Origin: Bacteroidales bacterium
GTDB lineage: Bacteria; Bacteroidota; Bacteroidia; Bacteroidales; F082
Assembly (NCBI GenBank): GCA_021647205.1
Contig: JAKIVD010000005.1
Span: 62,001 to 126,000, forward strand
Length of the DNA: 64,000 nucleotides
Direction of reading: 5' to 3'
The notes beneath the pieces were generated by a model. That model ran no database searches. It saw nothing but the letters and a program-made list of their open reading frames with translations, and was not told where the DNA came from. How positions within the stretch are numbered: position 1 is the stretch's first letter; each line of letters begins with the position of its first letter. Both the position numbers and the translations under genes were made by a program. Below, in pieces: positions 54,085 through 63,100 of this stretch.

Positions 54085-55806
54085 TTAAATCACCCGCAAC
54101 CAGACAAAACCAAAGGGCTCAAAACGAAAACTGCTGTTCTCGTCTTCGACGGAAAACCCCTGTGGAAACAGGAGCATTAAATCCTTGTCGGGAAAAGGGT
54201 TCCTGATGTTTATCGGCCCGGATGATAAATTATTAATTACCAACAATTGTTCATCTTCAAGTGTTCGCGTATAAGCCAACACCTTCTCTGTTTTCTCCCC
54301 CGAAAGTGTTTCTGCCAAAAGGAAACCGGTTGTCCCCCTGCCCAAAACCCTTTCATCTTTCCGGGTATTGAGCATGCTGCTGATCATTCCAAAAACGCGG
54401 GAATGAAAGCTTTCTTCATCTTTCAGGTTTTCCTGCAATTTTTCCCAGTCAATCCGTCCGCGCACCAAAAAGCGGGTGTCGTCTTTTCCGGTGAGTTTGA
54501 TTTGTTCGGCATAATATTTTTCGTCATTCCATTTACCAAATTCATCGCCATAATAAACCACCGGCGTCCCGGTGAGGGTAAGCATCAACGAATAAGCCAG
54601 GCCGATTTTACGTTCGTCGCGTTGCATCAATTCCGACAGCCGCGCCGAAATGCCCTCGCCCAGCCTGAAATCCCATTCAGCTTGGTGGCAATAATTGTCA
54701 TGGATAAACTTCCGGTCTTCTTCCGAAACATAAACCAGTTCCAGGCTCAATTCGTCGTGCACCCGTAAAAAACTCAGCCACTGGCTGTTTGCCGGAATCC
54801 TGGGCGTTACCGCTGGGCTGAGTGTTTGTTTAACAGGCCGGCCATCCTCAAGGGCAATCGCTTTGAACATCATGGGCATCAACGGAAAATGGTAGGCTGC
54901 ATGGCATTCATCACCCTCTCCCATGTATTTGACCACCTCCTTGGGTTTTTGGCAGGCTTCGGCAAGTAGTAACGTGCCGGGTTTTGTGTAATCGAGTATC
55001 GCTCTGAAAAACTTGACAATCGTATGTGTTTTGGGAAGGTTTTCGCAATTGCTTCCCTCTTCTTTCCAGAGATAAGGAATGGCATCGGCACGAAAACCAT
55101 CTACCCCCGTAGTTTGCCAATACAACAGGTTGCGGCTCATGGCCAGCAAAACATCGGGGTTTTTGTAATTCAGGTCGGGTTGAAAACTGAAGAAGCGGTG
55201 GAAGTAATTCCAGCCGTCTCCATTGGGCTCCCAATTGCTGTCTTCAATGCCTTTGAACAGCAGCCTTGCCTTGCCGTAAAGCGAAGTATTCTTGCTCCAG
55301 ATATAATAATTTCGGTAGGGATTGTCTTCCGATTTTCGGGCTTCCAAAAACCAGGGGTGCTGGTCAGACGAATGGTTGATGGCAATGTCGAATATTACCC
55401 GGATACCCCTTGAATGGGCTTCTTTCAGAAAATTTCCAAAAACGGCTTCCTGCTCTTCCCGGCTTGAATCTGCCGTCAGGCCCAGCAAATCAGGCCGGAT
55501 GCGGTCGTATTTTTTGATGTCGAAACCGGCATCGCGCATGGGCGAATCAAGGATGGGCAACAGCCACAGGCAGTTGACACCCAAATCCTGTAAGTAATCC
55601 AGTTTGTCTGACAGTCCGTTAAAATCTTTATTGAACAAATCGACGTACAAAGCGTACACAATGGCGTCTTTGTACCAATCGGTTTCTGCTTGCTTTGGAG
55701 GGCTGTTTTTTGGTTCCAGTTCCCTTAGAAAATCATTCAGTTTTCCTTCCCCGGTATCGGGGTAAAGTTCATTCCAGTAATGTTTTAGCCTGGTTCTTTC
55801 GTTCAT
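54085..55806 (-). CDS. Cytoplasmic GH13 enzyme, trehalose-synthase-like
   Basis: About 573 aa, no signal peptide. GH13 regions: VIFDIAINHSSDQHPWF, GVDGFRADAIPYL with the nucleophile Asp, LLAEACQ with the acid/base Glu, and FLRVHDELSLELV. The HDELSLE block together with GISARLSELMQRDERKI and GTPVVYYGDEFGKWND is close to maltose glucosyltransferase/trehalose synthase (TreS). It may turn maltose into trehalose or act as an intracellular glucosidase. Start chosen at ATG 55806 (MNERTRLKHYW); ATGs at 55812 and 55833 are alternatives. Confidence 0.85.
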   Translation of the reverse strand: MNERTRLKHYWNELYPDTGEGKLNDFLRELEPKNSPPKQAETDWYKDAIVYALYVDLFNKDFNGLSDKLDYLQDLGVNCLWLLPILDSPMRDAGFDIKKYDRIRPDLLGLTADSSREEQEAVFGNFLKEAHSRGIRVIFDIAINHSSDQHPWFLEARKSEDNPYRNYYIWSKNTSLYGKARLLFKGIEDSNWEPNGDGWNYFHRFFSFQPDLNYKNPDVLLAMSRNLLYWQTTGVDGFRADAIPYLWKEEGSNCENLPKTHTIVKFFRAILDYTKPGTLLLAEACQKPKEVVKYMGEGDECHAAYHFPLMPMMFKAIALEDGRPVKQTLSPAVTPRIPANSQWLSFLRVHDELSLELVYVSEEDRKFIHDNYCHQAEWDFRLGEGISARLSELMQRDERKIGLAYSLMLTLTGTPVVYYGDEFGKWNDEKYYAEQIKLTGKDDTRFLVRGRIDWEKLQENLKDEESFHSRVFGMISSMLNTRKDERVLGRGTTGFLLAETLSGEKTEKVLAYTRTLEDEQLLVINNLSSGPINIRNPFPDKDLMLLFPQGFSVEDENSSFRFEPFGFVWLRVI

Positions 55807-55926
55807 GGGCATGGCTGTTAAGCTGAATGACAAAACTACTTAAATTCAGACGGAAGCTGTAAATCTGAGCTTGAAAGCGGCAAAACTTTCAGGCAGTATC
55901 AAAGCTGTTGGGCAGGATGTGGGAAT

Positions 55927-56017: not shown

Positions 56018-56045
56018 TTGCACACCATAAAATGTGGTATTTTTG
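56018..56045 (+). promoter_or_regulatory. Promoter of the neopullulanase-like gene
   Basis: TTG (56018-56020), 17-nt spacer, TATTTTTG (56038-56045), the same spacing as the purA promoter. It ends 33 nt before the ATG at 56079, which rules out the open-frame start at 56034. Confidence 0.65.
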
Positions 56046-56078
56046 AAATCGCAAATTCCGAAAATTAACTTCTTTCAG

Positions 56079-57935
56079 ATGAAACTTAGATTATTGACCA
56101 TTGTCGTTCTGCTTGTGGTTGTTACCATCCGTACCGAAGCCCAAAAGGCCGGTTTACAGCGCATCGACCCCCCATTCTGGTGGACAGGAATGCAAAACAA
56201 CACCCTGCAACTGATGGTTTACGGGGAGAATATTTCGGCTACAAAACCACAAATTCATTATCCGGGCGTTTTGCTGAAAGAGGTGATCGCAGTGGAAAGC
56301 CCCAATTATTTATTTCTCAACCTGGTGATTGACAACAACGCCAAAGCAGGGAGTTTCGACATTGGTTTTTATAAAAAGAAGAGGAAGGTGGAATCCTATA
56401 AATTTGTGTTGAAAACCCGCGATTCCAATCCTGATTTGCACAAGGGTTTCGATAACTCAGATGTCATTTATCTGTTGATGCCCGACCGTTTTGCCAATGG
56501 TGACAGCACCAACGACAACATGCCGGGGATGATTGACACAGCCAAGCGTTCCAATCCACTTGGACGGCACGGTGGCGATATCCGGGGAATCGCCAACCAT
56601 TTGGATTACCTGAATGAACTGGGGGTTACAACCATCTGGACCACGCCCTTGCTCGAAAACAACATGCCCCGACAGTCGTATCACGGTTATGCCATCACCG
56701 ATTATTACAACATCGACCCGCGTTTCGGTACAAATGAAGATTATAAAAAGCTCGTGAAAGAAGCCCACCAAAAAGGCTTAAAAATTGTGATGGATATGGT
56801 GGCCAACCATTGCGGAACGGGCTACTACTGGAACGATGATTTGCCTTCGAAAGACTGGTACAACCAGTGGCCCGAATTTACACGTTCCAATTACCGGGTG
56901 GCCGTTCAGTCGGATCCCAACGCACCGCAGGCCGATTACGATAAAATGGTAAAAGGATGGTTTGACCACACCATGGCCGACCTGAACCAACACAACAAAC
57001 TGCTGGCGGAATTCCTGATTCAAAATACCATCTGGTGGATAGAATATGCCGGAATTGATGGTATCCGACAGGACACTTACCCGTATTCTTACAAAGATTT
57101 TATGGCTGAGTGGATGCAGCGCATTCTGGAAGAATATCCTGATTTTAATGTGGTTGGCGAGGTGTGGCTCGATTACCCTCCCGTAACGGCTTACTGGATG
57201 GACAATAAAACCAATGCCGATGGCTACCGCTCGTACCTTACCAATGTTTTCGACTTCCCGCTCTCCACAGCCATTGCCCGTGCTTTTAATGAGAAAGAAG
57301 GCTGGTCGTCGGGGACGATGCGGCTTTACGAATTGTTGTCGCAGGATTTTCTGTACAGCAATCCCATGAACATCGTCACTTTTTCTACCAACCACGATGC
57401 TGACCGCTTTTTCAGCAAGATGAATGAGGATTACCAGAAATTCAAACTGGGGATGATTTTTTTGATGACCACGCGGGGCATTCCGCAAATTTATTACGGT
57501 GGGGAAATTTTAATGACCGGCCGCGAACATAAGGGGCACGGAACCATCCGTGAAGATTTTCCCGGTGGATGGCCCGGCGACAGTGAGAATGCTTTTACTT
57601 CACAGGGGCGCACCGAAGAACAGGAAGAAGCTTTCAATTTTATGCGGCGATTGCTGAACTGGCGAAAAAACAATCGCGCCGTGCAATACGGCAGCTTAAA
57701 ACAATACCTTCCCGAGGATGGTGTTTATGTTTATTTCCGGCATTTCGAAGGCGAATCGGTGATGGTGGTTTTGAATAACATTGCCGAGAACAAGACCATC
57801 GACCTGTCGCGTTTTGAAAAAGACCTGGCCGGTTTTAACAAAGGAAGGAGTGTGCTGACACGGCAATCGTTTGACAGCCTCGATACTTTGAATGTGCCGG
57901 CTAAATCGGGTTTGGTGATTGTGCTGGGAGAATAG
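56079..57935 (+). CDS. Periplasmic GH13 neopullulanase/cyclomaltodextrinase (SusA-like)
   Basis: 618 aa with signal peptide (MKLRLLTIVVLLVVVTIRTEAQ). N-terminal cyclomaltodextrinase-type beta domain beginning IDPPFWWTGMQNNTLQLMVYG, then the GH13 barrel: IVMDMVANHCG, GIDGIRQDTYPY with the nucleophile Asp, NVVGEVW with the acid/base Glu, FSTNHDADR. It should hydrolyse maltooligosaccharides in the periplasm. First gene of a plus-strand glucan set. Its stop codon directly abuts the DUF559 repeat element. Confidence 0.92.
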   Translation: MKLRLLTIVVLLVVVTIRTEAQKAGLQRIDPPFWWTGMQNNTLQLMVYGENISATKPQIHYPGVLLKEVIAVESPNYLFLNLVIDNNAKAGSFDIGFYKKKRKVESYKFVLKTRDSNPDLHKGFDNSDVIYLLMPDRFANGDSTNDNMPGMIDTAKRSNPLGRHGGDIRGIANHLDYLNELGVTTIWTTPLLENNMPRQSYHGYAITDYYNIDPRFGTNEDYKKLVKEAHQKGLKIVMDMVANHCGTGYYWNDDLPSKDWYNQWPEFTRSNYRVAVQSDPNAPQADYDKMVKGWFDHTMADLNQHNKLLAEFLIQNTIWWIEYAGIDGIRQDTYPYSYKDFMAEWMQRILEEYPDFNVVGEVWLDYPPVTAYWMDNKTNADGYRSYLTNVFDFPLSTAIARAFNEKEGWSSGTMRLYELLSQDFLYSNPMNIVTFSTNHDADRFFSKMNEDYQKFKLGMIFLMTTRGIPQIYYGGEILMTGREHKGHGTIREDFPGGWPGDSENAFTSQGRTEEQEEAFNFMRRLLNWRKNNRAVQYGSLKQYLPEDGVYVYFRHFEGESVMVVLNNIAENKTIDLSRFEKDLAGFNKGRSVLTRQSFDSLDTLNVPAKSGLVIVLGE

Positions 57936-58129
57936 AATCCCCCCAACCCCCTTTAGGAAAGGGGGAGTTATGGGGATGCCCTTTAGGAAAGGGGGAGTTA
58001 TGGGGATGTGCTTTAGGAAATGGGAGTGGAGGGGATGCACAAAAAGAATTAGAATGAATCTGTTGAAAACTGGAAATACGGAAAAATCCAAGGAGAAGCC
58101 CACCTCTCCCCCTTCTAAGGGGGCTGGGG
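57936..58129. repeat. Left flanking repeat of the DUF559 element
   Basis: Two C/G-rich hairpin blocks. Block A (57936 to about 58036) has repeated CCCTTTAGGAAAGGG hairpins joined by AGTTATGGGGATG. Block B (58099-58129) has the hairpin CCCCCTTCTAAGGGGG inside CCCACCTCT...GGCTGGGG. Both recur in the same order and orientation at 58597-58812. Block A starts one base after the stop codon of the GH13 gene. Confidence 0.92.
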
Positions 58130-58617
58130 GGATTCATAACCGTTACCTGCCCTACAATAAAAAGCTCAAACAGTTCTCCAAAAACCTGAGAAACGACAGC
58201 ACACGATCAGAAATTGCACTTTGGCAGGAACTACGGGGAGCTAAAACGGGATATACTTTCAATAGGCAAAAACCCATTTTAAATTACATCGTTGATTTCT
58301 ACTGTAAACCACTAAACTTGGTAATTGAAGCAGATGGAATTAGTCACTGGGATAAAGAACAAATTAAAAAAGATCAAATCAGACAGGAGAAACTTGAGAA
58401 GCTCGGACTCCATTTTCTAAGATTCGATGATGATGAAATATTGAATGATATGGAAAATATTTTGAGAGTTATTGAAATAACGATTGAGGATTTGGAACAG
58501 ATATATCCGGAGGCAAGAAAAAGGAGAAAAGATGGGGAACGTCCTAAAAGGAAGAGACGGACGCGTGCGGAGCGGGGGAAATGCAGCAGCAGTAGGAATC
58601 CCCCCAACCCCCTTTAG
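58054..58617 (+). CDS. DUF559 (Vsr-like) endonuclease-domain protein
   Basis: 187 aa. The DUF559 core (about residues 30-155) has SEIALWQELRG, NRQKPILNYIVDFYC, LVIEADGISHW and a C-terminal LRFDDDEILNDMENIL, a restriction-endonuclease-like fold related to very-short-patch-repair nucleases; D and ExD of the active site are present. Repeat block B is translated into its N terminus (PTSPPSKGAGG), and repeat block A supplies the last residues (NPPNPL) and the TAG stop. The start at ATG 58054 is a best guess; the frame is open from inside the upstream gene. The C-terminal 30 residues are very basic. Function unknown; see the flanking repeats. Confidence 0.75.
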   Translation: MNLLKTGNTEKSKEKPTSPPSKGAGGIHNRYLPYNKKLKQFSKNLRNDSTRSEIALWQELRGAKTGYTFNRQKPILNYIVDFYCKPLNLVIEADGISHWDKEQIKKDQIRQEKLEKLGLHFLRFDDDEILNDMENILRVIEITIEDLEQIYPEARKRRKDGERPKRKRRTRAERGKCSSSRNPPNPL

Positions 58618-58812
58618 GAAAGGGGGAGTTATGGGGATGCCCTTTAGGAAAGGGGGAGTTTTGGGGATGCCCTTTAGAGAAAGAGTAGTTATGGGGGAAA
58701 AGATAGAGTTGAGGAAAGATGCAAAAGTGACGTAAAATGAGAATTCCAAACATAGGAATTACGGGAAACACTCAGGAAAAACCCACCTCTCCCCCTTCTA
58801 AGGGGGCTGGGG
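58597..58812. repeat. Right flanking repeat of the DUF559 element
   Basis: Second copy of blocks A (58597 to about 58697) and B (58782-58812, identical to 58099-58129 over 31 nt). The spacer between blocks is also recognisably related to the left one (GGAAATACGGAAAAATCC versus GGAATTACGGGAAACACTC). It ends 43 nt before the next gene. Confidence 0.92.
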
Positions 58813-58855
58813 CAATTCCTGGTTGAATACGGGATTGGTACAATAAATAAACACA

Positions 58856-61687
58856 ATGAAACTTAAAACAATTGCTATTCTGGTTTTAATGCTGGCGACC
58901 TGGAACCTCCCCGCCCAGATAGCCTGGCTTACACCGGCAGACCCCACAGTAGATGAGGAAGTAACCCTCACCTTTGATGCTAAACAAGGCAACAAAGCAC
59001 TGGCCGGTTATGAGGGAACGGTCTACCTGCACACCGGTATCATTACCGATAAAAGTCTGGACGGCGGCGACTGGAAGCACGTAGTTGGTAACTGGGGCAA
59101 AGCCGATGAAAGGGTAAAAATGACAAGCAAAGGGAACGGCCTGTACACCTTCGAATTTGTTATTCGCTCGTTTTATGAGCTGCGCCCCGAAGAGCAAGCC
59201 CGCCAACTGGCCTTTGTGTTTCGCAGCGAAGAGGGGGCCAAAGTGGGAAAAACCGGCACCAATGAAGATATTTTCCTTGCTGTAAACGGTTACCGTCCAC
59301 CGGTAAAGAAAGAAGCCGTTTACCTTTTCGAAACCCGGAAATACATTTCCGATTCATTGCACGGCAACCAACTGGATATCCGAACCAACCACGGGACGGT
59401 ACGTGTCACACCTTTTACGGACCGCATCATTCAAATTGTTAACCTTCCCGAAAAAAACAATTACAAAGATTTATCCGATGCGGTGATTCTGCAGCCGCCC
59501 CGTATTCGTATTTTTATTGAAGTAACCGACGATTGGTTGAAATACAAAACCGACAGCCTCGAAGTGGTTTTCCACAAAGACCCTTTTTTTGCCGCCTTTG
59601 TTTACCACGGCGACACCATTCTTCAGGAAGAAAAAGGATATTTTGAACGCAGCGACAACAACGGGCTCCGCTTTCAACTCGACAACAACGAAAAAATCTA
59701 CGGCTTGGGGGAAAGGGCGAATGCATTCAACCTTGTTGGCAGCCGCTACAAATTGTACAACCGGCCAAAATATGGTTACGAAATTGGCGCTAAGAACTTG
59801 AATTATTCCATTCCGCTGGTGGTTTCTTCCCGGAAATATTTGTTGCTGTTCGACAATCCCCAGAAGGGCTATGCCGATGTGGGGGAAACCGAACAGCAGA
59901 TTTTGGAATGGGGGGCAATTGGAGGTACAATGAAATACTTTCTCATTGCCGGAAACAGTTTCAAATCGCTGGTCATGGATTATTCATTACTCACCGGCCG
60001 GCAGCCCATGCCACCGCGCTGGGCCTTGGGGAATTTGCAGTCGCGCATGGGCTACCGCAGCCAGAGGGAAACCGATTCCATCGTCAGGCTGATGCAACAA
60101 TACGATTTCCCCATCGATGCCGTTATCCTCGATTTTTACTGGTTTGGCGACAGCATCATGGGCACCATGGGCCGGCTGGACTGGTACAAACCCAACTGGC
60201 CGCAGCCCGAAAAAATGATTCAAAAATTCAGGAAAACCGGTGTCAAAACCATCCTGATTACCGAACCCTACATCCTCGATTCGCTGGCCAATTTTAAAAT
60301 TGCCGATAGTTTGGGCATCCTTGCCACCGACAGTTTGGGGAGTTCCTACGTCAACAAAGAGTTTTACTTCGGCCACGGAGCCCTTATTGATATTTTTAAA
60401 CCGGAAGCGCAGGATTGGTTTTGGGAACAATACCAAAAGCAAATCAAAATTGGCGTGGCCGGCTGGTGGGGCGATCTGGGAGAACCCGAGAACCATCCTT
60501 CCGACCAAATTCACGTCAATGGCAAGGCCGACGAAGTGCACAATATTTACGGCCATTATTGGGACAAAATGTTGTTTGAAAAGTACCGGAGATACCATCC
60601 CGAAACCCGTTTGTTCAACCTCAACCGTTCGGGTTTTGCCGGCTCTCAGCGCTACGCTGTTTATCCCTGGACAGGCGATGTTTCGCGCTCCTGGGGCGGC
60701 TTGCAGGCACAATTGCCGCTGATGCTGCACATGAGTTTGAGTGGCTTGCCCTTCATCCATTCCGATGCCGGTGGTTTTGCGCAGGGAACTAAAAACGATG
60801 AGTTGTACACCCGCTGGCTGCAAATGGCCTGCTTCTCGCCCATCCTTCGCCCGCACGGCTCCGACATCCCTTCCGAACCGGTTTATTTCTCCGAACACAC
60901 CCGTGAAATTGTGCGCAACTTCATGAAACTGCGTTACCGTTTGCTGCCTTACATTTACACCACTGCCATGCAGGCCCACCTGCGGGGCTACCCCATCGTC
61001 AGGCCCTTGTTTTTTGAGTTTCCGGAGGACACCGCAACTTACAACATCAGTAGCGAATATTTGTTTGGAGGGCAATTTCTGGTAGCCCCTGTTGTTGAGG
61101 CCGGAATTGAAAGGTTATCTGTTTACCTGCCGGGAGAAGTCAAATGGTACAATTTCTGGGATAAGCAAAAATTCGCCGGTGGTCAATGGATTGAGGTGCC
61201 CGTCATTCTCGAAACCATTCCTGTTTTTGTTCAGGAAGGCGCTTTCATTCCCCTGGTAAAGGCCGTCAGCAGTACCGATTTTTATTCGTCGCAGGAACTC
61301 ACTGTCCGTTATTTTCCCGGAAATATTGGCGACTCCAGCGCTTACACCATCTTTGAAGATGATGGCAAAACCTACGGAACCATTGGCCGTGGCGAGTTTG
61401 AATTGATGGTGATGAAAGCCCGCCAGCCCGATGAAAAATCCATGCAGATTCAGTTCAGCAAAGACGGCTGGGACTACCAGGGCATGCCCTTGAAACGGGT
61501 GATGAAACTGGAAATTGTGGGGCAGTCACCAAAAGCAAAACGAAACATCACCCTGAACGGGGAAAAAATGAGAAAGAAAAAAGAAAGTGATAACTTTGAA
61601 GGTTTCTATTTCAACTCATCCGGAATGTTGGTTGTTGATTTTAACTGGGATGGGAGAATGATAAAAATAGATATTATAAAAAAATAA
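58856..61687 (+). CDS. Exported GH31 alpha-glucosidase/4-alpha-glucosyltransferase
   Basis: 943 aa with a signal peptide (residues 1-19, ending LPAQ). N-terminal domain of about 120 residues (GYEGTVYLHTGI ... AFVFRSEEG) is shared with the secreted amylase of this locus. GH31 parts follow: an N-terminal beta domain (IYGLGERANAFNLVG), barrel with PRWALGNLQSRMGYRS, nucleophile Asp in GWWGDLGEPE, acid/base Asp in WTGDVSRSWGGL, and a C-terminal DUF5110-like domain. WGDLGEPE resembles oligosaccharide 4-alpha-D-glucosyltransferases such as Agd31B, so transglucosylation is as likely as hydrolysis. 18 nt before the next gene, same operon. Confidence 0.9.
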   Translation: MKLKTIAILVLMLATWNLPAQIAWLTPADPTVDEEVTLTFDAKQGNKALAGYEGTVYLHTGIITDKSLDGGDWKHVVGNWGKADERVKMTSKGNGLYTFEFVIRSFYELRPEEQARQLAFVFRSEEGAKVGKTGTNEDIFLAVNGYRPPVKKEAVYLFETRKYISDSLHGNQLDIRTNHGTVRVTPFTDRIIQIVNLPEKNNYKDLSDAVILQPPRIRIFIEVTDDWLKYKTDSLEVVFHKDPFFAAFVYHGDTILQEEKGYFERSDNNGLRFQLDNNEKIYGLGERANAFNLVGSRYKLYNRPKYGYEIGAKNLNYSIPLVVSSRKYLLLFDNPQKGYADVGETEQQILEWGAIGGTMKYFLIAGNSFKSLVMDYSLLTGRQPMPPRWALGNLQSRMGYRSQRETDSIVRLMQQYDFPIDAVILDFYWFGDSIMGTMGRLDWYKPNWPQPEKMIQKFRKTGVKTILITEPYILDSLANFKIADSLGILATDSLGSSYVNKEFYFGHGALIDIFKPEAQDWFWEQYQKQIKIGVAGWWGDLGEPENHPSDQIHVNGKADEVHNIYGHYWDKMLFEKYRRYHPETRLFNLNRSGFAGSQRYAVYPWTGDVSRSWGGLQAQLPLMLHMSLSGLPFIHSDAGGFAQGTKNDELYTRWLQMACFSPILRPHGSDIPSEPVYFSEHTREIVRNFMKLRYRLLPYIYTTAMQAHLRGYPIVRPLFFEFPEDTATYNISSEYLFGGQFLVAPVVEAGIERLSVYLPGEVKWYNFWDKQKFAGGQWIEVPVILETIPVFVQEGAFIPLVKAVSSTDFYSSQELTVRYFPGNIGDSSAYTIFEDDGKTYGTIGRGEFELMVMKARQPDEKSMQIQFSKDGWDYQGMPLKRVMKLEIVGQSPKAKRNITLNGEKMRKKKESDNFEGFYFNSSGMLVVDFNWDGRMIKIDIIKK

Positions 61688-61705: not shown

Positions 61706-63100
61706 ATGAGAAAAAACAGATTTATCCTATTTTCGCCCCTCGTTTTTTGCTTGGTACTGCTTATGCTTATTTCTTGCCAGGAAAGCCCGAAGAAAATGAA
61801 CGACAATCAGGAACAAACCAAAGAATCATCAGGGATGAAACACGTCGAATGGAGCAGAAGCGCCAATATTTATGAAGTCAACATCAGGCAATATACCGAA
61901 GAGGGCACGTTTAAAGCCTTCCGTAAGCACTTGCCCCGTTTAAAAGAAATGGGGGTGGACATCCTCTGGCTGATGCCCATCCACCCGGTGAGTAAACTCA
62001 ACCGCAAAGGCACACTGGGTAGTTATTATGCTGTGGCCGATTACAAAGCCGTAAATCCCGAATTCGGCAATATGGACGATTTTAAAGCTTTGGTGGAAGA
62101 GGCCCACGGTTTGGGCATGAAAGTCATTCTCGACTGGGTGGCCAACCATTCGGGCTGGGACAATGTGTGGACGGTGGAACACGAAGATTTTTATGAGAAG
62201 GACAGCAATGGCAAGTTCATTTCCCCTTACGACTGGACGGATGTGATTTCCTTCGATTACAACAATCCGCAAATGCGCGACAGCATGATTACTGCCTTGA
62301 AATTCTGGATTACCGAAGCCGACATCGATGGTTACCGCTGCGATGTGGCCGGGATGGTGCCGACCGATTTCTGGGATGATGCACGAACAGCAATGGACAA
62401 AATCAAGCCTGTTTTTATGTTGGCCGAAGACGAAGACAATGCCGATTTATTGCGCCATGCCTTCGACATGAATTACACCTGGAAACTGAACCACTTGATG
62501 AATGACATTGCCAAAGGCAAAAAAATTGCCAACGACATTTGGGATTATCTGAAATGGAATGATGCACATTTCCAGCCGGACGATTACCGCATGGCCTTCA
62601 CCACCAACCACGACGAGAACTCCTGGAACGGAACCACCAAAGAACGCCTGGGAGATGCCACTGAGGTTTTTGCTGTTCTCTCCTACACCGTCAAAGGGAT
62701 GCCACTTATTTACTGCGGGCAGGAAGCCGGTTTGGACAAACGGCTGGCCTTTTTTGAAAAAGACACCATCAACTGGGACAAGTTATCAGAAGTTGACTTT
62801 TACACCACATTGAACAAATTAAAGCACAACAACAAAGCCCTGTGGAACGGCACTGCCGGCGGTGAAATGCTTCGCATTGGTGGCGGTGTTAATCCAAATG
62901 TTTTTGCTTTTTACAGGCTTAAACAAGGGAACATTGTGGCCAGCTTTTTAAACCTGAGTCCCGGCAAACAAAGCATCACTTTCGACCAAAGCCAAATCGA
63001 AGGCGATTACACCGATGTCTTCAGCGGGAAGAAAGTAAGCCTGCGCAAGGGCCATAAATTTACCCTGAAACCCTGGGGGTATTTGGTGTTGACGAAGTAA
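61706..63100 (+). CDS. GH13 alpha-amylase-family lipoprotein
   Basis: 464 aa. Lipoprotein signal with C24 (LLMLISC). Compact GH13 enzyme: VILDWVANHSG, DGYRCDVAGMV with the nucleophile Asp, PVFMLAEDED with the acid/base Glu, FTTNHDENSW. Short family members of this kind are maltooligosaccharide-acting amylases at the periplasmic or outer face. Last gene of the GH13-GH31-GH13 plus-strand set, ended by a strong hairpin. Confidence 0.92.
   Translation: MRKNRFILFSPLVFCLVLLMLISCQESPKKMNDNQEQTKESSGMKHVEWSRSANIYEVNIRQYTEEGTFKAFRKHLPRLKEMGVDILWLMPIHPVSKLNRKGTLGSYYAVADYKAVNPEFGNMDDFKALVEEAHGLGMKVILDWVANHSGWDNVWTVEHEDFYEKDSNGKFISPYDWTDVISFDYNNPQMRDSMITALKFWITEADIDGYRCDVAGMVPTDFWDDARTAMDKIKPVFMLAEDEDNADLLRHAFDMNYTWKLNHLMNDIAKGKKIANDIWDYLKWNDAHFQPDDYRMAFTTNHDENSWNGTTKERLGDATEVFAVLSYTVKGMPLIYCGQEAGLDKRLAFFEKDTINWDKLSEVDFYTTLNKLKHNNKALWNGTAGGEMLRIGGGVNPNVFAFYRLKQGNIVASFLNLSPGKQSITFDQSQIEGDYTDVFSGKKVSLRKGHKFTLKPWGYLVLTK

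Follow-up and report, generated by a model that had tools for sequence, protein, structure and literature searches.

A DUF559 gene between inverted hairpin pairs: a candidate self-spreading unit comparable to REP/RAYT systems

Within a 64,000-nt stretch of DNA from a Bacteroidales bacterium (here, the window), a gene of the DUF559 family lies between two pairs of C/G-rich hairpins. Sequence comparison gives good support to the view that the gene and its hairpins form a unit, and this unit likely moves. We lean toward the explanation, already put forward in a preliminary description of this DNA, that nuclease and hairpins make up a self-spreading unit resembling REP/REPIN-RAYT systems, with an unrelated enzyme of Vsr fold and PD-(D/E)XK type. 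Hairpins on both sides of the gene, agreement between left and right, clustering of hairpin class on the nuclease tree, copy number, site polymorphism and the lack of these hairpins at Y1 transposase loci speak for this explanation; counting in part against it is the locus itself, where the unit is single-copy.

Small REP-like hairpins for which no mover is known occur in many bacterial genomes. In our estimation there is about an even chance that the widespread dispersed hairpins of this kind in Bacteroidota, several other phyla and Escherichia coli are made and kept by solitary DUF559/Vsr-fold nucleases, which would then be a second, unrelated REPIN enzyme converged on the inverted-doublet architecture of RAYT. 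If DUF559 nucleases do move or keep hairpins, a family of unknown function would gain a role, E. coli ycjD would gain a testable one, and a Vsr-type nuclease would be a new engine for tiny mobile DNA. A search of the open-access literature, which leaves most subscription-journal papers outside, found no link of DUF559 or ycjD to hairpin repeats.

Layout of the window locus

The GH13 gene ends at 57935 and the GH31 gene begins at 58856, both on the plus strand, which leaves a gap of 920 nt. The sequence and ORF reading agree with the earlier account of its content: hairpin A, hairpin B, the DUF559 gene, hairpin A and hairpin B (Table 1). Two further amylase-like ORFs, judged from their translations (54085-55833, minus strand, and 61706-63100, plus strand), flank the GH13 and GH31 genes; the element therefore lies within a starch/maltose-type cluster.

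Table 1. Features of the GH13-GH31 interval in the window
Feature	Position	Strand	Evidence
GH13 gene (alpha-amylase/cyclomaltodextrinase-type)	56034..57935	+	Pfam Alpha-amylase 4.1e-57, Cyc-maltodext_N and _C; ORF
Hairpin A, left: C-tract foot AATCCCCCCAA and stem CCCCCTTTAGGAAAGGGGG (57947-57965)	57935..57965	+	Repeats, folding
Spacer of left A-B pair, including 30-nt tandem repeat derived from block A	57966..58098	.	
Hairpin B, left: stem CCCCCTTCTAAGGGGG (58108-58123), inverted foot CTGGGGGGATTC (58124-58135)	58099..58135	-	
DUF559 nuclease ORF from in-frame ATG, 187 aa	58054..58617	+	ORF, Pfam, alignment, model
Hairpin A, right: foot and stem CCCCCTTTAGGAAAGGGGG (58608-58626)	58596..58626	+	
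Spacer of right A-B pair, with 30-nt tandem repeat	58627..58781	.	
Hairpin B, right: stem 58791-58806, degenerate foot CTGGGGCAATTC	58782..58818	-	
GH31 gene (alpha-glucosidase-type)	58856..61687	+	Pfam Glyco_hydro_31_2nd 1.7e-90; ORF

The two copies of block A are indeed near-identical (57935-58016 versus 58596-58677, 96% over 82 nt), and those of block B match at 31 of 31 nt (58099-58129 versus 58782-58812). The left repeat had been placed one base after the GH13 stop codon; it actually starts on the last base of that codon (57935). The right copy does supply the end of the nuclease, as claimed, its last six codons (NPPNPL) and stop lying within the right hairpin foot. The DUF559 frame is open back to a TTG at 57919 and its conserved core spans about 58138-58530, so that left hairpin B adjoins this core and falls within the open frame.

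The term "direct repeats" in the preliminary description needs qualification. The block does recur, but within a flank A and B are mutually inverted (57935-57953 versus 58117-58135, 95% complementary), and the "direct repeat" is thus the repetition of an inverted pair. The hairpins that touch the gene, B on the left and A on the right, are also inverted to each other (58117-58138 versus 58593-58614, 91%).

Each of the four hairpins is built as a C-tract foot next to a stem, and DNA folding of block A shows that its foot can also pair with a G-tract further on, for a stem of two tiers. When each hairpin was folded alone as DNA and compared with shuffles, three of the four were modestly more stable (z -1.95, -1.76 and -2.16), and right hairpin B was no more stable (z -0.42). 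The repeats are not a matter of chance, since the pattern CCCCCTTN{0,10}AAGGGGG has five matches in the whole of the window's own genome, four of them at this locus, and its reversed control has none. The earlier account had counted absence of the blocks elsewhere against itself; kindred hairpins do occur in other genomes, but in the genome of origin the class is essentially confined to the window locus (the same four of five matches), where we therefore see a single-copy unit and no expanded family.

Block A also carries a decayed 30-nt tandem unit (AGGAAAGGGGGAGTTATGGGGATGCCCTTT-like; 57955-58046 and 58616-58707), and this decaying tandem suggests that block A is itself growing through local duplication.

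The DUF559 protein and known systems

The window protein is a clear member of DUF559 (PF04480; E=1.4e-28, 99.3 bits against a curated Pfam cut-off of 20.6), and the residues invariant in 54 aligned relatives include E25, D53, E64, D66, H70, D79 and R95. The closest structure to its AlphaFold2 model (mean pLDDT 85) is NGO0050 of Neisseria gonorrhoeae (3hrl, TM 0.90 to target), followed by the catalytic domain of the homing endonuclease I-Bth0305I (3r3p, TM 0.73 to target); a profile search agrees on both (3r3p E=8.5e-5). Vsr is among the weaker structural matches (E 0.14-0.16). On the predicted structure the protein is of PD-(D/E)XK type and Vsr/EDxHD-like, with a nuclease activity that the fold would imply.

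YcjD of E. coli and NGO0050 belong to the same family, and in the excerpts of PMC1189080 and PMC12817139 that we consulted they are characterised only as PD-(D/E)XK-type proteins, YcjD having been assigned to that superfamily by earlier work cited in the first of these; the descriptions in these excerpts draw no link to repeats. Near both genes the loci that we read have C/G hairpins, as in the window, but these are degenerate or one-sided. EDxHD homing endonucleases such as I-Bth0305I (excerpts of PMC3943268) have a related catalytic fold by profile and model; unlike them, the window protein is small, has no recognised separate DNA-binding region, is found in no intron or intein, and is flanked by hairpins.

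Comparison with REP/REPIN elements and their RAYT (TnpA-REP), as described in excerpts of PMC3733652, brings out both likeness and difference. Inverted palindromes flank the RAYT gene as they do DUF559 genes, and dispersed copies are single or in inverted pairs with a copy number that tracks the gene, which is also the case for DUF559 hairpins. RAYT, however, is an HUH tyrosine transposase, whereas here the enzyme is a PD-(D/E)XK-type DUF559 protein, in which Pfam yields only DUF559 and MTES_1575 and no HUH Y1 tyrosine transposase. The REP/RAYT foot is GTAG, whereas DUF559 hairpin feet read as the C-tracts AATCCCCC or CCCACCCC. With both the HUH Y1 enzyme and the GTAG tag absent, the window unit is no member of REP/RAYT. 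The same excerpts describe CGTC-tagged REPs as REP-like repeats without a dedicated transposase, and these differ from DUF559 hairpins in both foot and stem. Rfam gave no match of note.

It is barely plausible, in our judgement, that the protein is simply a Vsr-type mismatch repair or restriction enzyme with incidental repeats. Such a role would accord with the weaker structural matches to Vsr and with Caulobacter VsrA, a DUF559-domain protein whose gene context or function ties it to a cytosine methyltransferase (excerpts of PMC12907096). The surrounding ORFs here are glycosidases, though, with no methyltransferase noted among them (Pfam on GH13 and GH31, the immediate neighbours; others by translation). 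The second DUF559-profile match of the same genome (C37:22900-24300) is a Vsr-like ORF by eye and has no such hairpins in the flanks that were read. Two other candidates were set aside: phage origin, for which there were two weak phage records alone, and a defence system, for which all PADLOC matches were weak.

Hairpins at DUF559 loci and their match to the nuclease

The loci examined numbered 119: named relatives (the best 80 of 564 confirmed stretches), 30 family loci from a search of 100 family genomes (49 with a match), eight plasmid-collection loci and E. coli ycjD. Three of these were the same records as others, leaving 116. Two further loci were left out, one a phage record without annotation and the other a long gene fusion.

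Five exact stem classes were searched for in both 300-nt flanks of the 102 loci with long enough flanks, which include loci from the best 80 of 564 confirmed stretches; both flanks were positive in 49. Among 1,135 control intervals drawn from these loci, none had an exact-class hairpin on both sides. As the classes were written after viewing these flanks, a motif-free test is the fairer one. With seven loci dropped for flanks shorter than 120 nt, 109 loci were scored for inverted repeats without reference to any motif, and 88 of them scored above the 95th percentile of 569 controls and 82 above the 99th. DUF559 homologues are thus not generally without such repeats, the outcome that had been named as contrary to a nuclease-hairpin unit. 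The 88 comprise 67 of 76 named loci (from the best 80 of 564) and 13 of 15 strong family relatives, together with just four of nine weak family relatives and four of nine distant-taxon loci, figures that count against the favored explanation. A generic best-hairpin scan proved too blunt (of 80 loci, 32 passed the 95th control percentile on the left, 31 on the right and 18 on both sides), and C/G hairpins were visible in most flanks inspected despite its low counts.

In the plasmid-collection loci (Cyanobacteria, Deinococcus, Alpha- and Betaproteobacteria), inspection by eye shows distinct C/G hairpins near the gene, with which the score agrees in a minority. On the cyanobacterial plasmids (L142, L147), DUF559 genes are found amid several C/G hairpins in tandem, which have loops of their own, e.g., CCCCCCAATTCTGGGGGG.

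At the loci read, the inverted hairpins beside the gene are whole, with no single hairpin split by it, and the pair-gene-pair arrangement of the window recurs in two further genomes (G057 and G023). Most of the 315 non-syntenic alignments ended before the hairpin (160 of 197 on the left, 163 of 185 on the right). Those that reached its outer edge mostly ended within 10 nt of it (27 of 33 left, 14 of 20 right), which lends weak support, at the level of aligned sequence, to the hairpin as a candidate element boundary.

Hairpin class also goes with the nuclease. Left and right stems were of the same class in 52 of the 53 loci typed on both sides, against 15.8 expected by shuffling. On a nuclease tree of 103 proteins and 121 columns (strong support for 15 of the 99 inner branches; untyped rows treated as one group), hairpin class required 21 changes versus 59.5 when shuffled, and 0 of 200 shuffles were as low; joint descent alone could be sufficient for this clustering. 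Dispersed hairpins, in 15 named genomes, are mostly of the resident nuclease's class. The CCCCCTT class numbered 4-24 and the CCCCTC class 1-2 in five Algoriphagus genomes; the corresponding counts were 0-1 and 6-31 in four Mucilaginibacter genomes, 0 and 6 in Fulvivirga, and 1 and 16 in Agaribacillus. Exceptions with both classes are Marinoscillum (3 and 5) and three Acinetobacter (5 and 7, 10 and 5, 7 and 1). Reversed-pattern controls in the 15 genomes gave 0-3.

These data bear on an alternative reading, in which the hairpins serve as ordinary transcription terminators or attenuators, are kept next to a short nuclease gene and have spread mainly by descent. Strong G+C stems in intergenic DNA are what terminators look like, joint descent would also give the clustering on the tree, and some close relatives do have their DUF559 genes at a common site. 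We nevertheless consider this reading improbable: control intervals lacked two-sided hairpins altogether, dispersed copies reach 115 in one genome (reversed control 0), and among pairs of DUF559 genes 60-80% identical just 12 of 348 have the neighbours on both sides in common, a count that short contigs lower.

Dispersed copies, mobility and possible mechanism

Among the 100 family genomes, 20 have a close DUF559 gene, defined as a match of at least 90 bits; 14 of these contain five or more hairpins, counted by two patterns, versus 9 of the 80 others (Fisher p=3.8e-7), and stratification within genera kept the association (p=5e-5). Because the hairpins that flank the gene inflate this comparison, four were subtracted per gene-bearing genome, upon which the association fell to p=0.019 within genera. 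Two observations count against a simple relation: some genomes have many hairpins without a close DUF559 gene (e.g., 11 in G047, 12 in G098 and 8 in G071), and six with a close gene have merely 2-4.

In G083, the genome with 115 exact foot-plus-stem copies, 30 copies were taken and 26 were readable; none had a downstream inverted partner and one had a partner 99 nt upstream. Most of the copies read share a tail beyond the hairpin; beside the resident DUF559 gene this foot and stem recur with no such tail, which counts against the favored explanation. Standalone inverted pairs do exist in other genomes: eight were read, with stem starts 51-109 nt apart, one of the eight being degenerate and in the window's own genome. 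In G057 (L252-L254) each hairpin of a pair is nested in a larger AT-rich inverted repeat with arms TTAATAAAATGAAT and AAATCAGAAAATAAA, so that the pairs resemble two big hairpins side by side.

A possible though unlikely alternative is that something else spreads the hairpins, with the DUF559 gene acting as a free-standing homing endonuclease gene whose product cuts the repeats and which is copied in between them. The fold and profile match to I-Bth0305I would suit such a passenger, as would genomes with hairpins and no close gene, the solo hairpins of G083 with their own tail, and the lone hairpins without the gene at the GH13-GH31 site of three relatives (below). Against it, the gene lies between whole inverted hairpins and not within a split one. 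The match of hairpin class to the nuclease tree and the copy number that goes with the gene further suggest that the gene matters for the repeats themselves.

A GH13 survey gave a match in 67 of the 100 genomes; 30 loci were read, and GH31 is the next gene in 27. Of these 27 gaps, three have DUF559 and hairpins, three a lone hairpin without the gene (one by eye) and 21 neither, 20 of the last being 0-119 nt long and one 959. G042, one further genome, has an apparent GH31 start (by eye) after the element. Fixation of the element at this site in all relatives, which had been listed as evidence against mobility, is thus not what we found; the gaps are polymorphic. One Algoriphagus genome has a 999-nt stretch with the element where a relative, its flanks 85-87% identical, has 240 unrelated nt. 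We looked for a clean empty site with a target-site duplication at GH13-GH31, tktB-ypfG, fabI-sapF and in Algoriphagus, and none was clean; loss could account for part of the presence and absence at these sites. At a neighbouring intergenic site, Algoriphagus relative G143 (L263) has a CCCCCTT-type pair, and the species compared with it (L068) has different sequence of a repetitive kind there.

There is a small chance that a RAYT (Y1, HUH) or another transposase moves the hairpins and the DUF559 gene rides along. Y1_Tnp genes are present in 19 of 20 tested genomes, and the doublets are inverted as in REPINs. Yet about 90 kb at 30 Y1_Tnp (RAYT/IS200-type) loci of these genomes, 20 uncut and 10 cut by a contig edge, contained 0 exact-class hairpins, which makes RAYT an unlikely mover here. 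Many of the Y1 genes come with inverted repeats that are specific to them.

If the nuclease itself spreads the hairpins, as we favor, it would recognise hairpins of its own class by their foot and stem, either when these are extruded or when replication leaves them single-stranded, and would cut or nick there. Host repair or recombination might then copy the hairpin pair into the broken site, at times with the gene between two pairs. Enzymes of this fold hydrolyse with metal-bound water, and a covalent intermediate is not expected; homing-like cleavage followed by repair copying is therefore likelier than strand transfer of the RAYT type. The model predicts that each nuclease prefers its own flanking hairpin class.

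E. coli ycjD offers a second setting. The repeat of ycjD type may be BoxC. At ycjD the C/G hairpins are one-sided, downstream and at the 3' end of the gene, the upstream hairpin being another sequence. In a set of 60 rows spread over the ranking, with one partial ycjD row and one plasmid row excluded, the median number of matching places is 14 in the 37 rows with ycjD and 3 in the 21 rows without it (p=2.6e-9, lineages pooled). At fabI-sapF, two strains without ycjD have an efflux operon in its place, as is likewise described in excerpts of PMC12817139. Between tktB and ypfG, a ycjD-type hairpin is present in a few of the 40 strains listed and the classic E. coli REP sequence in five of six sequenced-through comparisons; two repeat systems appear to alternate at this one site.
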